From an uncultured bacterium (GTDB lineage Bacteria; Elusimicrobiota; Elusimicrobia; Elusimicrobiales; Elusimicrobiaceae), in contig CASFXV010000001.1 of assembly GCA_949298795.1 (NCBI GenBank), positions 1-64,000 of the forward strand: DNA of 64,000 bases, in the 5' to 3' direction. Below the pieces are notes generated by a model that ran no database searches, was not told the DNA's origin, and saw only the letters and a list, made by a program, of their open reading frames with translations. The translations under genes and the position numbers were made by a program. Positions 15,324-63,883 of this stretch are shown here, piece by piece (position 1 is the first letter of the stretch; every line of letters begins with the position of its first letter).

Positions 15324-15830
15324 TTATTGCAATAAATACATACTACCCTGCTGCACGCCTCCCATACTTTTGCATATCTTGGGGCCTAGGGTTGTACTTT
15401 TATTCCCGGGAATACAGAAAATTTTACTACTTCTACCACCACGCGAATGGTCTAAATACATACGCAAAACCACGGAATATGGTTCGCCGTAAGTAGAAGG
15501 GTATGCATCTACGTAATCATCAGTTTTGGTAGGGCCGCCCTCATAATTATAATGGGTATTTTCACAACGGTACTCTCCCCCGGCCTCATCTTCCGTACAA
15601 CCGGGCAGACTGATATCCAAGCCGCCAATTCTGTCCGGCGGATATTCTCCATTCGCCAAGCGGTATACTTCCAACGCGTTTTTAATGGTTCTGAGGTTAG
15701 GCATCAAAGAACCCGCACGGCTCTTTTCCACCGCTACCTGATACTGCGGGAGCGCCACCGAAGCCAAAATACCTATTATCAATACCACCACTAGCAGCTC
15801 TATAAGCGTAAATCCTGCGTTCTTGTTCAT
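15324..15830 (-). CDS. Type IV pilin/pseudopilin with T12 promoter
   Basis: A 168-aa prepilin. Leader MNKNAG precedes FTLIELLVVVLIIGIL, with Glu5 retained and ALPQYQVAVEKSRAG continuing the helix. The globular part contains four cysteines, including CTED and ENTHYN surroundings, and ends KICKSMGGVQQGSMYLLQ. It is closest within the window to the pilin at 40695-41192, which shares the leader type and promoter. AGGAGGGG precedes ATG. It is a lone gene between two terminators. Confidence 0.85.
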   Translation of the reverse strand: MNKNAGFTLIELLVVVLIIGILASVALPQYQVAVEKSRAGSLMPNLRTIKNALEVYRLANGEYPPDRIGGLDISLPGCTEDEAGGEYRCENTHYNYEGGPTKTDDYVDAYPSTYGEPYSVVLRMYLDHSRGGRSSKIFCIPGNKSTTLGPKICKSMGGVQQGSMYLLQ

Positions 15831-40694: not shown

Positions 40695-41192
40695 TCACCA
40701 CAACCTATATACATCTGCACCGCTAACGCTAAAAGAAGGTTCAGTAAGACCTGTTAGGCTTTTGCACACACGGGTGGCAAAGTCCTTATTACTATAATAA
40801 GCATAACAGGAGGCATGTTGTGGTGATCTGTATAGATAAATGAGTAATACCCCCGAAACACGGGCATCAGAAGCCACCAGATATTGGGGCCCATTTTCTA
40901 GATGAGCAGAGGCTTTTCCTTTGCTGTCAAAATAACACCAACCGTCGTGCACCCCTGTACCATATACAGCACAATCAATATCTAAATCACGAATATCTTG
41001 GGCAAAACTGCCATTTGCCATATAATAACGTTCTTGGGCTTGTTGTATACTGCGCAACATGGGAATCATTGCAGATATACGCGTTTTGGCAACAGCTATT
41101 TGGTATTGCGGCAACGCTACCGAAGCTAAAACACCTATTATTAACACCACTACCAGCAGCTCTATTAACGTAAACCCCGCATTTTTTTTCAT
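40695..41192 (-). CDS. Type IV pilin/pseudopilin with T12 promoter
   Basis: A 165-aa prepilin with leader MKKNAG then FTLIELLVVVLIIGVL, Glu5 kept and ALPQYQIAVAKTRIS following. The globular part has four cysteines (DCAVYG, GWCYFD, HASCYAYY, RVCKSL) and ends SGADVYRLW. The start at 41192 follows GGGAGGGG; upstream codons to 41222 are not needed. Its sister in the window is the pilin at 15324-15830, with the same leader, the same ALPQYQ segment and a nearly identical promoter. Confidence 0.85.
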   Translation of the reverse strand: MKKNAGFTLIELLVVVLIIGVLASVALPQYQIAVAKTRISAMIPMLRSIQQAQERYYMANGSFAQDIRDLDIDCAVYGTGVHDGWCYFDSKGKASAHLENGPQYLVASDARVSGVLLIYLYRSPQHASCYAYYSNKDFATRVCKSLTGLTEPSFSVSGADVYRLW

Positions 41193-46678: not shown

Positions 46679-47188
46679 CTAATTAGCGCACCAACCGGCA
46701 GTTCCATCACTACAGCAGGCAGATACCGGCGTATCTATGCCGCAAAAATCAGCACACAAATCTTTTCCCGCATCATTTACGGCGTGACATATAATGTGTC
46801 TTTGGGTGTAATACCGATATAAATAATATTTATACTGCAAATCTTCCCCTGCGGAAACACGGTCAGCAGAAACGCCGGGCTCCCCCAATACAATATAGAA
46901 TCCGTTTTCACTGGTCCCAGAAACAGCATTCCCTTTTGTATAAAAGCTGTTCCCGCTCACATTTTTAAGAGCAATATCCAACCCTCGCAAAGAAGAGGCA
47001 TACCGATTTGTCTGCATATATTTGCGTTGCTGAGCCTGCACTAATATATTAATCATATTTACGGCTTCCGCCATGCGGCTGCGTTCTACTGCTTTCAAAT
47101 ATTGCGGCCATGCCATGGCAGCCAATATGCCTATAATTAATACCACCACCAACAACTCTATTAGGGTAAACCCGGCTTTTGGGACCAT
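46679..47188 (-). CDS. Type IV pilin/pseudopilin, six-cysteine type
   Basis: A 169-aa prepilin with leader MVPKAG then FTLIELLVVVLIIGIL and the AVERSRMAEAVN helix. The C-terminal region HIICHAVNDAGKDLCADFCG, followed by DTPVSACCSDG and WCAN, repeats the six-Cys pattern of the pilin at 8702-9235. The two also share NRYASSLRGLDIA-like and YTKGNAV-like segments. TGGAGGAGATTC precedes ATG 47188. It is a lone gene. Confidence 0.85.
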   Translation of the reverse strand: MVPKAGFTLIELLVVVLIIGILAAMAWPQYLKAVERSRMAEAVNMINILVQAQQRKYMQTNRYASSLRGLDIALKNVSGNSFYTKGNAVSGTSENGFYIVLGEPGVSADRVSAGEDLQYKYYLYRYYTQRHIICHAVNDAGKDLCADFCGIDTPVSACCSDGTAGWCAN

Positions 47189-62255: not shown

Positions 62256-62340
62256 CCCGCTATAAAAATCTAAGGCAAACGAACTAGCTGAACAAATAAT
62301 ATTTTTCTATAATTTAAAGGTTAAAGCAGTTTTTTAGCAA

Positions 62341-62370
62341 ATAAGCCTTTTTATACGGCTTATATATAAT
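62341..62370 (+). promoter_or_regulatory. Promoter with inverted repeat ahead of the structured RNA
   Basis: The -10 TATAAT is at 62365-62370. No consensus -35 is seen. Instead an inverted repeat ATAAGCC (62341-62347)/GGCTTAT (62357-62363) covers the -35 and spacer, as an operator would. Start of transcription is expected near 62377. Confidence 0.5.
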
Positions 62371-62376
62371 TTGAAT

Positions 62377-62586
62377 CTGTTTTTGGAACCGTATGAAGAA
62401 TACGGTGAGCTGCTGGGATACCGGCGGCACAATGGAAATCCAAAAACAGTCGTTTTAAGCACAAGACAAACGGCCTAATTACCCGGTTGTTTTGTGCTGA
62501 GTGCTTTCTGCCATAATTTTATGGCAGAAGGCCACGGCTGTTATTATTTGGGTTATTTCCATTGGCTCAAATATAACAGCCGTTTT
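62377..62586 (+). ncRNA. Predicted structured RNA of about 210 nt, class unknown
   Basis: Six helices can be drawn by eye. P1 is 62377-62387 with 62439-62449 (11 bp). P2 is 62388-62394 with 62400-62406 (7 bp, GAAGA loop). P3 is 62409-62416 with 62421-62428 (8 bp, GATA loop). P1 to P3 form a three-way junction. P4 is 62458-62473 with 62483-62498 (15 bp, one mismatch). P5 is 62503-62514 with 62521-62532. P6 is 62535-62550 with 62568-62582 (15 bp, one bulge) and is followed by TTTT. P1 begins where transcription should start, and P6 looks like an intrinsic terminator. It may be a free small RNA or a riboswitch/attenuator for the downstream gene. It matches no class I know. Confidence 0.6.
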
Positions 62587-62588
62587 AT
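62535..62588 (+). terminator. Terminator-like last hairpin of the structured RNA
   Basis: CGGCTGTTA pairs with TAACAGCCG, extended by TATTTG/CAAATA past a bulged T, followed by TTTTATC. It lies about 55 nt before the start of the pyruvyl transferase gene. Confidence 0.6.
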
Positions 62589-62641
62589 CATCTCGCCTTA
62601 TCTCCTGTTATACAGAGCCCTTTTTAAACTGGAGATAAAAG

Positions 62642-63883
62642 ATGACTTTATTTAATCCATTTTTTATTAACACGAATTTATGTTACACCCAAAAGGATTG
62701 CCAAGACTTACCTACTTTCTTAAATAATATTGCAGGCAATACAGGGAACTCTTACATTGCCTACAGTGTACTTAAATTACTGTACGGGAAAATATTTCCT
62801 GTAGCAGAAATAAAAAATTTATGGTCTTATAATTTTGATAAACAAGACGAATTAATTGCGCAAATAAATAATCAATACTCGCATGTTATTTTATTTTTAC
62901 AAGACCAAATCCGATTGGAACAATCCTATGGAGTCCAACCAGACTGGAAAAAGATAAACGGGTTCTTATCCAAGCTTAAAAAGCCGTTTATTGTATTTAG
63001 TTTAGGTGCCAATGATTTTGGGCAAAACGGCCCGGACTGGTGGAAAAAACTGCCAAAAGATTTTCTGCAATTTTTACATATTGTATCCGAGCACAGCGTT
63101 TCGCTTGGGGTCAGAGGCTTGCAGACCTTGGAAATTTTAGAAAAACTAGGAATAAAAAATGCAAAAGCAGTGGGCTGCCCCACTTTCTTTGAAACAGGCC
63201 CTAACAAACAAATAATAAAAAAACCATTAACAAAGAGTACGGATATTTTGAGGGCCGGTTCTTTAGATTTTAGAAGCCAGCGCCTTTTATCAGGAGTAAT
63301 ACAAGATGAAACCGCTCTGATCGAATTACTGTATTTCAAACAATTTTCCACAACCCCGTTAGCAACAAAACCGTCTTTCCCTTTTTTGTTATCGATAGCC
63401 ACAGGGGGAATGCGTTGCTTTGCGGGAATAGAAAAATGGAAAGAATTCGTTTCCCAATTTACCTGCTGTATAAGCTCCAGGATGCACGGCGGGATTTTAG
63501 CCTTAAACTGCGGGGTACCCGCCGTTTTGGTAAATAAAGATTTGCGCGCCAAGGAAATGTGTCAATTATTTAAAATACCTAACTTTGCCCAAACAGCCCG
63601 CCAATATAGCTGGGAAGAACTTTACCAGCAAGCAGACTTTGAGCCTTTAAACAAACAATATCCTGTTCTTTATAAAGCTTTTACCAGCTGGCTGGCGGAA
63701 AACGGCCTGACTACTGAGATAATAAAACAAGCCCGTCAAACAGCCGAAAATATTCCCCCCATACAAGAACCGGAACTGCCGCCCAGCCCACATTTTTCAC
63801 AGTGGTTGGATGACATACTAAAAACCAAATACTATTACATTCCCACACAGGAACTTATCAAACTGCTCATACAGAAAATATGA
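62642..63883 (+). CDS. Polysaccharide pyruvyl transferase family protein
   Basis: The 413-aa protein has family features: NIAGNTGNSYIAYSVLKLL near the start, FSLGANDFG, EHSVSLGVRGLQTLEIL (about 148-164), GCPTFFE and CCISSRMHGGILALNCGVPA (about 279-298). Members add pyruvate ketals to exopolysaccharide or cell-wall sugars. CTGGAG precedes ATG. The gene is visibly more AT-rich than its neighbours and uses more AAA, AAT and TTA codons, which suggests acquisition by transfer. It lies downstream of the structured RNA. Confidence 0.83.
   Translation: MTLFNPFFINTNLCYTQKDCQDLPTFLNNIAGNTGNSYIAYSVLKLLYGKIFPVAEIKNLWSYNFDKQDELIAQINNQYSHVILFLQDQIRLEQSYGVQPDWKKINGFLSKLKKPFIVFSLGANDFGQNGPDWWKKLPKDFLQFLHIVSEHSVSLGVRGLQTLEILEKLGIKNAKAVGCPTFFETGPNKQIIKKPLTKSTDILRAGSLDFRSQRLLSGVIQDETALIELLYFKQFSTTPLATKPSFPFLLSIATGGMRCFAGIEKWKEFVSQFTCCISSRMHGGILALNCGVPAVLVNKDLRAKEMCQLFKIPNFAQTARQYSWEELYQQADFEPLNKQYPVLYKAFTSWLAENGLTTEIIKQARQTAENIPPIQEPELPPSPHFSQWLDDILKTKYYYIPTQELIKLLIQKI

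Follow-up and report, generated by a model that had tools for sequence, protein, structure and literature searches.

Bacterial attenuators are well known, and self-complementary codes are otherwise familiar from engineered toehold switches. In transcription-terminating riboswitches and protein attenuators, a 5' leader carries an intrinsic terminator before the gene, a mutually exclusive antiterminator, and an upstream junction that acts as, or resembles, a sensor. The RNA described here, found in a 64,000-nt stretch of DNA (the window) from an uncultured member of the Elusimicrobiaceae, shares these features, but its antiterminator is predicted to open with a hypervariable, strictly Watson-Crick 10-mer that is unique to each copy, and a second-stage complement lies in the leader beyond the terminator. 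It resembles the c-di-GMP riboswitches (GEMM in Rfam) in its many copies per genome and its regulon of pilin and surface genes, yet its architecture is different and matches nothing in Rfam. As in RfaH/ops, LoaP/dfn, and EAR antitermination of surface operons, the predicted control of horizontally spread surface genes resides in the 5' leader; unlike those systems, the terminator is inside the leader, the genes are mostly single, and no specialised NusG was found in the genomes searched. Variable yet complementary single-stranded segments are likewise a property of GOLLD, ROOL, and phi29 pRNA, with their covarying loop-loop contacts, whereas the segments in this RNA begin a long predicted intramolecular antiterminator.

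We propose that this RNA is probably a cis-acting transcription attenuator, a leader with two mutually exclusive folds, that constitutes a new family. The class of mechanism (a terminator/antiterminator leader) is already known; what appears to be new is the family itself, together with its architecture, the private address carried by each copy, and the way in which the module spreads. A search of the open-access literature returned no earlier description of the RNA.

Architecture and covariation of the RNA

The segment at 62341-62640 has a minimum free energy of -121.2 kcal/mol, compared with -70.1 +/- 5.5 kcal/mol for shuffled sequences (z = -9.3; 0 of 200 shuffles as good). The structured stretch spans approximately 220 nt of the forward strand (62371-62590) and consists of a three-way junction formed by P1, P2, and P3, followed by the hairpins P4 and P5 and the terminator hairpin P6. 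P1 (62377-62387 paired with 62439-62449) closes the junction (62377-62449), a candidate sensor domain in which P2 (62388-62394 with 62400-62406) is capped by a GAAGA loop and P3 (62409-62416 with 62421-62428) by a GATA loop; the P1 5' strand, CTGTTTTTGGA, is almost invariant among homologues. Between P3 and P1 is a hypervariable 10-mer, N10 (62430-62439), which has a perfect 10-nt inverted match, N10' (62555-62564), in the loop of P6. The P1 3' strand and its linker (CCAAAAACAGTCGT, 62440-62453) have two potential partners, the P1 5' strand in a predicted OFF form and the P6 5' strand in a predicted ON form, where they would make up the core of the antiterminator. Downstream are P4 (62458-62498; helix 62458-62468 with 62488-62498), with the loop CTAATTACC and, in other copies, the alternative loop CTGATCC; P5 (62503-62532; helix 62503-62515 with 62520-62532); and P6 with its T-run (62534-62587; helix 62534-62553 with 62565-62583, then TTTT). 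The post-terminator leader (62588-62641) precedes the putatively regulated gene, also on the forward strand (62642-63883), whose product is a polysaccharide pyruvyl transferase of 413 aa (PF04230, E = 2e-24). The GGAG Shine-Dalgarno sequence of this gene is buried in a hairpin of the leader (62598-62609 with 62627-62638), which suggests an additional, translation-level layer in the window copy.

A preliminary description of this locus had given the hairpin positions, the GAAGA and GATA loops, and the trailing TTTT, all of which are borne out here, and the inverted repeat that it reported upstream (TAAGCC..GGCTTA) is indeed present. Its account of the fold was nevertheless incomplete, having overlooked the mutually exclusive pairing of 62430-62453 with 62534-62564. 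Nor did it anticipate the self-matching hypervariable 10-mer, the multi-copy regulon in which prepilin-like genes predominate, or the recurrence of the module next to unrelated genes.

Homologues were collected first by BLASTN and then by searching with a covariance model of 29 sequences. In these 29 distinct sequences, 95.8% of cells are paired when all helices, including N10, are counted, and two-sided changes occur in 51 of 82 pairs; the covariation score is 0.415, as against 0.184 for shuffled alignments and 0.07-0.11 for slid partners. Variation is greatest in the N10 helix, with two-sided changes in all ten pairs, one-sided changes in none, 97.2% of cells paired, and not one G-U among the cells counted. 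Two-sided changes are also frequent in P2 (6/7 pairs), P3 (6/8), and P5 (11/14, with 98.6% paired). P1 has no pair that is changed on both sides, and its 5' strand is therefore apparently constrained beyond pairing. The loops of P2 and P3 show free variation, and the junction has few invariant unpaired bases. The stem of P4 is variable and its loop is common to both families of the phylum in which the RNA is found; this loop (62474-62482 in the window), CUAAUUACC or CUGAUCC, is a possible site of protein or tertiary contact. A T-rich tail follows P6 in 191 of 203 copies. None of the 4227 families of Rfam 15, among them GEMM, 6S, tmRNA, GOLLD, ROOL, and T-box, scored above its gathering threshold over the RNA in the window or at 20 homologue loci, and permissive thresholds yielded only chance matches below the gathering scores. 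With no family matched and hundreds of homologues with compensatory changes recovered, the suggestion that this is an undescribed structured RNA holds.

The likely promoter is TAGCTG (62285-62290) and TATAAT (62308-62313), separated by 17 nt, on the forward strand. It matches the TAGCCA-N17-TATAAT block that class II relatives have approximately 70-75 nt before the RNA, and the transcript therefore probably begins near 62320. Upstream of 188 homologues there are 100 exact matches to TATAAT, compared with 8 in control windows, and their positions bunch near -70 and at -30 to -15. The -10 box had been placed at 62365-62370, with transcription starting at the first base of P1; an exact TATAAT starting at -6 is present in just 2 of the 188 homologues, and the block at 62285-62313 is, on these comparisons, likely the better candidate. 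The upstream hairpin P0 (TAAGCC..GGCTTA, 62342-62364, forward strand) is probably transcribed; its motif occurs in many non-pilin copies (26 of 78) and is rare before pilin genes (3 of 110). In 50 of 188 copies, compared with 1.6% of control windows, AGGAG is found approximately 20-70 nt upstream of the RNA, often preceding a hairpin of variable sequence. We considered a short leader peptide (translational attenuation) and rejected it, as inspection by eye found no consistent start codon after the upstream AGGAG of class II copies.

Distribution, gene context, and module spread

With the covariance model, 57 of the 61 genomes sampled within the genus contain the RNA (E <= 0.01), as do 100 of 341 Elusimicrobiota genomes. 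The positives belong to the family of the window (gut Elusimicrobiaceae, f1) and to a second family, f21, which is presumably the Endomicrobiaceae; there is one weak match in f29, and the order-level sister family, f2, is absent from the matches listed for the 341 genomes. Copies per genome range from 1 to at least 38. In an exact-pattern search of 84,980 species, the named records among the matches listed are Elusimicrobiota bar three; they include gut Elusimicrobiaceae and Elusimicrobium MAGs recovered from animals, ruminants among them, and the Elusimicrobiota MAGs Cc175 and Cd354, and some records are labelled only 'uncultured bacterium'. Pattern matches in Eubacterium, Acetobacter, and Calditrichaceae were discarded, scoring 9.8 bits or nothing with the model. 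No credible homologue was found in phage and plasmid collections, and four pattern matches in viral contigs reached at most 18.5 bits; the best of these (L277, 3278-3455, reverse strand, 18.5 bits) is weak.

On the contig of the window, the model matches solely at 62371-62590. The same genome has a second copy elsewhere (G000:C2:53556-53761, L110; 60 bits), with an altered P1 sequence, which precedes a GmrSD-type (PF03235) restriction gene and is a close relative of a locus in another genome (L109 in G047). Seven divergent members (L259, L260, and L262-L266) are without P4 and have a different terminator sequence, and they retain the three-way junction and the N10 match; these could serve to delimit the minimal core.

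Copies lie on the sense strand, directly upstream of a gene, with a median of 40 nt from the end of the RNA to the start codon (5th-95th percentile, 29-130). A Shine-Dalgarno sequence is present in 180 of 203 copies, and the usual gap of 30-60 nt between terminator and start codon includes it. Because this fixed spacing is too tight for a promoter in most copies, expression should need read-through of P6, which we infer to be the sole route to the gene.

A prepilin-like gene (with the FTLIELLVVVLIIG motif) is downstream of 112 of 203 distinct copies, and in two genomes in which the RNA is expanded nearly all of the downstream genes are of this type. Pfam matches among 56 non-pilin products include GT2 and GT8 glycosyltransferases, outer-membrane barrels, LicD, TupA, pyruvyl transferase, EcoRI-type and type III methylases, GmrSD, and sulfatase; another product is an HsdR N-terminal-like protein, and many of the remainder have signal or lipoprotein peptides as judged by eye. 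The RNA is not a marker of all pilin genes: the window genome has 56 prepilin-motif matches and two copies of the RNA, neither of them before a pilin gene. Within the window, prepilin-like N-methylation motifs occur at 15750-15830, 41112-41192, and 47111-47179, all on the reverse strand, in genes without the RNA. Across the genus, the number of prepilin motifs per genome ranges from 53 to at least 150. One genome (G041; loci L062, L067-L070, L072, L074, L076, L077, and L079) encodes an expanded family of prepilin-like proteins, 300-400 aa long, that contain cysteine-rich repeats of the type NGSICVSN..GTC.

Units that are 92-97% identical recur in different species, where the genes flanking them on either side are unrelated (L020/L025, L017/L020, L017/L025, and L244/L178). 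The shared block begins 104-175 nt before the RNA, near the promoter, and its 3' end is fairly constant at +31 to +44 (approximately 32 nt past the RNA), before the Shine-Dalgarno sequence. With the limits of identity at the promoter and before the Shine-Dalgarno sequence, promoter and RNA can therefore recur without the gene. Inspection of the shared blocks by eye showed neither terminal repeats nor target duplications.

The predicted antiterminator fold and the N10 match

The second fold is a predicted 24-bp antiterminator helix (62430-62453 with 62534-62564) that is incompatible with P1 and P6 and compatible with P2 through P5. It arises because the P1 3' strand and linker (CCAAAAACAGUCGU) complement the P6 5' strand (ACGGCUGUU..UUUGG), so that the N10/N10' match lengthens to 24 bp. 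Taken alone, this helix is 96.1% paired across homologues and has a covariation score of 0.474, compared with 0.147 when shuffled; its covariation derives from N10, the core being near-invariant in the main group of homologues. A pseudoknot within the OFF form could also accommodate the pairing of N10 with N10', and N10 covariation alone is therefore insufficient to establish an antiterminator, making additional support from the core necessary. Since the core hardly varies in the main group, we chose 18 members with a differing P6 base. In these, the core duplex formed with the member's own strand has an energy of -15.4 kcal/mol, compared with -11.2 kcal/mol when strands are combined across divergent members (p = 5e-5) and -12.3 kcal/mol when they are combined with main-type strands (p = 0.009). 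Re-matching is exemplified by L266, L264, L104, and L105; in L189, L076, L259, and L260 the own core is no better than the cross controls. As read from these alignments, both folds are conserved and the core is re-matched where it has diverged.

The two folds are close in predicted energy, although the calculation excludes cotranscriptional kinetics and tertiary contacts. For the RNA alone, the antiterminator fold is less stable than the terminator fold by a median of 3.2 kcal/mol (195 copies, in molecules of approximately -100 kcal/mol). When each copy is folded with its own 45-nt leader the difference becomes -1.8 kcal/mol, compared with +0.4 kcal/mol with shuffled leaders (p = 8e-10), an effect that is statistical and absent in one third of copies. 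Homologue leaders are complementary to the P1 5' or P6 3' strands, and predictions of the ON fold pair the released P1 5' strand with the leader in 149 of 195 cases. The best leader complement falls on the P1 5' strand in 48% of cases, compared with 24% of dinucleotide shuffles (62% versus 27% for pilin copies), and complementarity is above the 99th percentile in 40 of 190 copies, where 1.9 would be expected. The window copy leans toward OFF, its terminator fold being 7.5 kcal/mol more stable, and its own leader shifts the balance slightly.

N10 has a complement of at least 9 in 188 of 203 copies, compared with 0.9% of shuffles. The codes differ among paralogues: in two genomes, with 30 and 28 paralogues, none of 813 pairs have an identical N10, and pairing energies are about -14 kcal/mol with the own partner and about -2 kcal/mol with either cross or shuffled partners. 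Paralogue N10 identity is 0.35, compared with 0.36 expected from base composition, even among RNAs that are 80-85% identical overall; this value was obtained by ungapped, anchored comparison, as gapped alignment inflates it to approximately 0.7. N10/N10' is thus apparently a private self-address of each copy, orthogonal to those of its paralogues. Selection for non-crossing codes would be the simplest reading of this divergence, which may also have come about by block exchange and neutral drift.

Proposed mechanism and rival explanations

In the OFF state of the proposed attenuator, P1 would close the three-way junction, and P6 with its T-run would terminate transcription after approximately 220-270 nt. 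In the ON state, once the P6 5' strand and loop have emerged from the polymerase, N10' in the loop would pair with N10 beside P1, and the pairing would zip through the P1 3' strand to form the 24-bp antiterminator, opening P1 and blocking the terminator so that the gene is read. The ON form could then be held by the freed P1 5' or P6 3' strand pairing with the post-terminator leader. Private N10 codes would keep dozens of similar leaders in one cell from cross-pairing. We infer that the folds interconvert during transcription and that the signal is carried by the stability of P1, acting through the three-way junction or through P4 and a protein. It is also possible that N10 strength sets the expression level kinetically, free of any signal. 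A more specific proposal, that a spreading module confined to the phylum combines promoter and two-state leader and that its private 10-nt address opens its own terminator by strand invasion, is plausible but tentative.

Several other explanations have to be weighed against, or within, this attenuator. A riboswitch, in which a small molecule bound by the three-way junction stabilizes P1 and turns the gene off, would be a specific form of it, and a second messenger such as a cyclic dinucleotide would be a fitting ligand for a regulon of pilin and surface genes. That regulon, the many copies per genome, and the retention of the junction in members without P4 agree with this idea, and c-di-GMP riboswitches known upstream of pilin genes (for example, PMC6366702) provide a precedent. 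The freely varying P2 and P3 loops and the scarcity of invariant unpaired junction bases are, however, unlike most aptamers, and with no riboswitch family of Rfam 15 matched we regard this form as rather unlikely. Control by an RNA-binding protein that shifts the balance at the P4 loop or the three-way junction is unlikely as well: it would explain why the P4 loop is common to two families of the phylum while the stem varies, but divergent members that have lost P4 retain both folds. An RfaH- or LoaP-type partner is unlikely in particular, as a NusG paralogue was not found among 12 genomes searched, 11 of which have one NusG, with none found in the incomplete G026.

The remaining rivals depart from attenuation. 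That N10 and N10' mediate association, through a pseudoknot or from one molecule to another in the manner of phi29 pRNA and GOLLD/ROOL, with self-sorting of paralogues during assembly, is suggested by the position of N10' in a hairpin loop and by orthogonal codes that would sort like with like; it is improbable given that the match runs past N10 into strands of P1 and P6 in a single 24-bp helix, an extension that a loop-loop contact would not require. The preliminary description had left the choice between a free regulatory RNA and an attenuator for the downstream gene. A stand-alone, trans-acting small RNA, with downstream genes that are chance neighbors or separately promoted, could account for the complete terminator and the compact fold, and the leader complementarity to the P1 5' strand might mark a trans target. 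This is very unlikely when copies are always in sense and close before a gene, the space between terminator and Shine-Dalgarno sequence is too small for a promoter, and an antiterminator would serve no purpose in a free RNA. The attenuator half of that choice gains support from the promoter-less gap and from a conserved antiterminator predicted to compete with the terminator, and the free RNA is the less favored as the main function. Equally doubtful is the idea that the unit is mobile or repeat DNA (MITE- or attC-like), structured for its own movement and regulatory only secondarily, if at all. The nearly identical units beside unrelated genes in different species, their sharp ends, and the large differences in copy number would be expected of such an element; on the other hand, the shared block has no fixed starting point on its 5' side, by-eye inspection gave no sign of the repeats or duplications that movement might leave, position and orientation relative to genes are strict, and the ends fall outside the promoter and before the Shine-Dalgarno sequence, as for shuffled regulatory modules.

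The Elusimicrobiota are a phylum with few cultured members. If the proposed attenuator operates as described, a single genome can carry dozens of natural switches working in parallel, seemingly kept apart by hypervariable self-complementary codes, and a small genome could run them side by side, free of cross-talk, over a variable repertoire of surface, pilus, and defense genes. The recurrence of the module beside unrelated genes suggests that promoters and leaders spread apart from the genes that they control, and the RNA points to a hidden regulatory layer over the large repertoire of pilin-like, glycan, and restriction genes that gut Elusimicrobiota possess.
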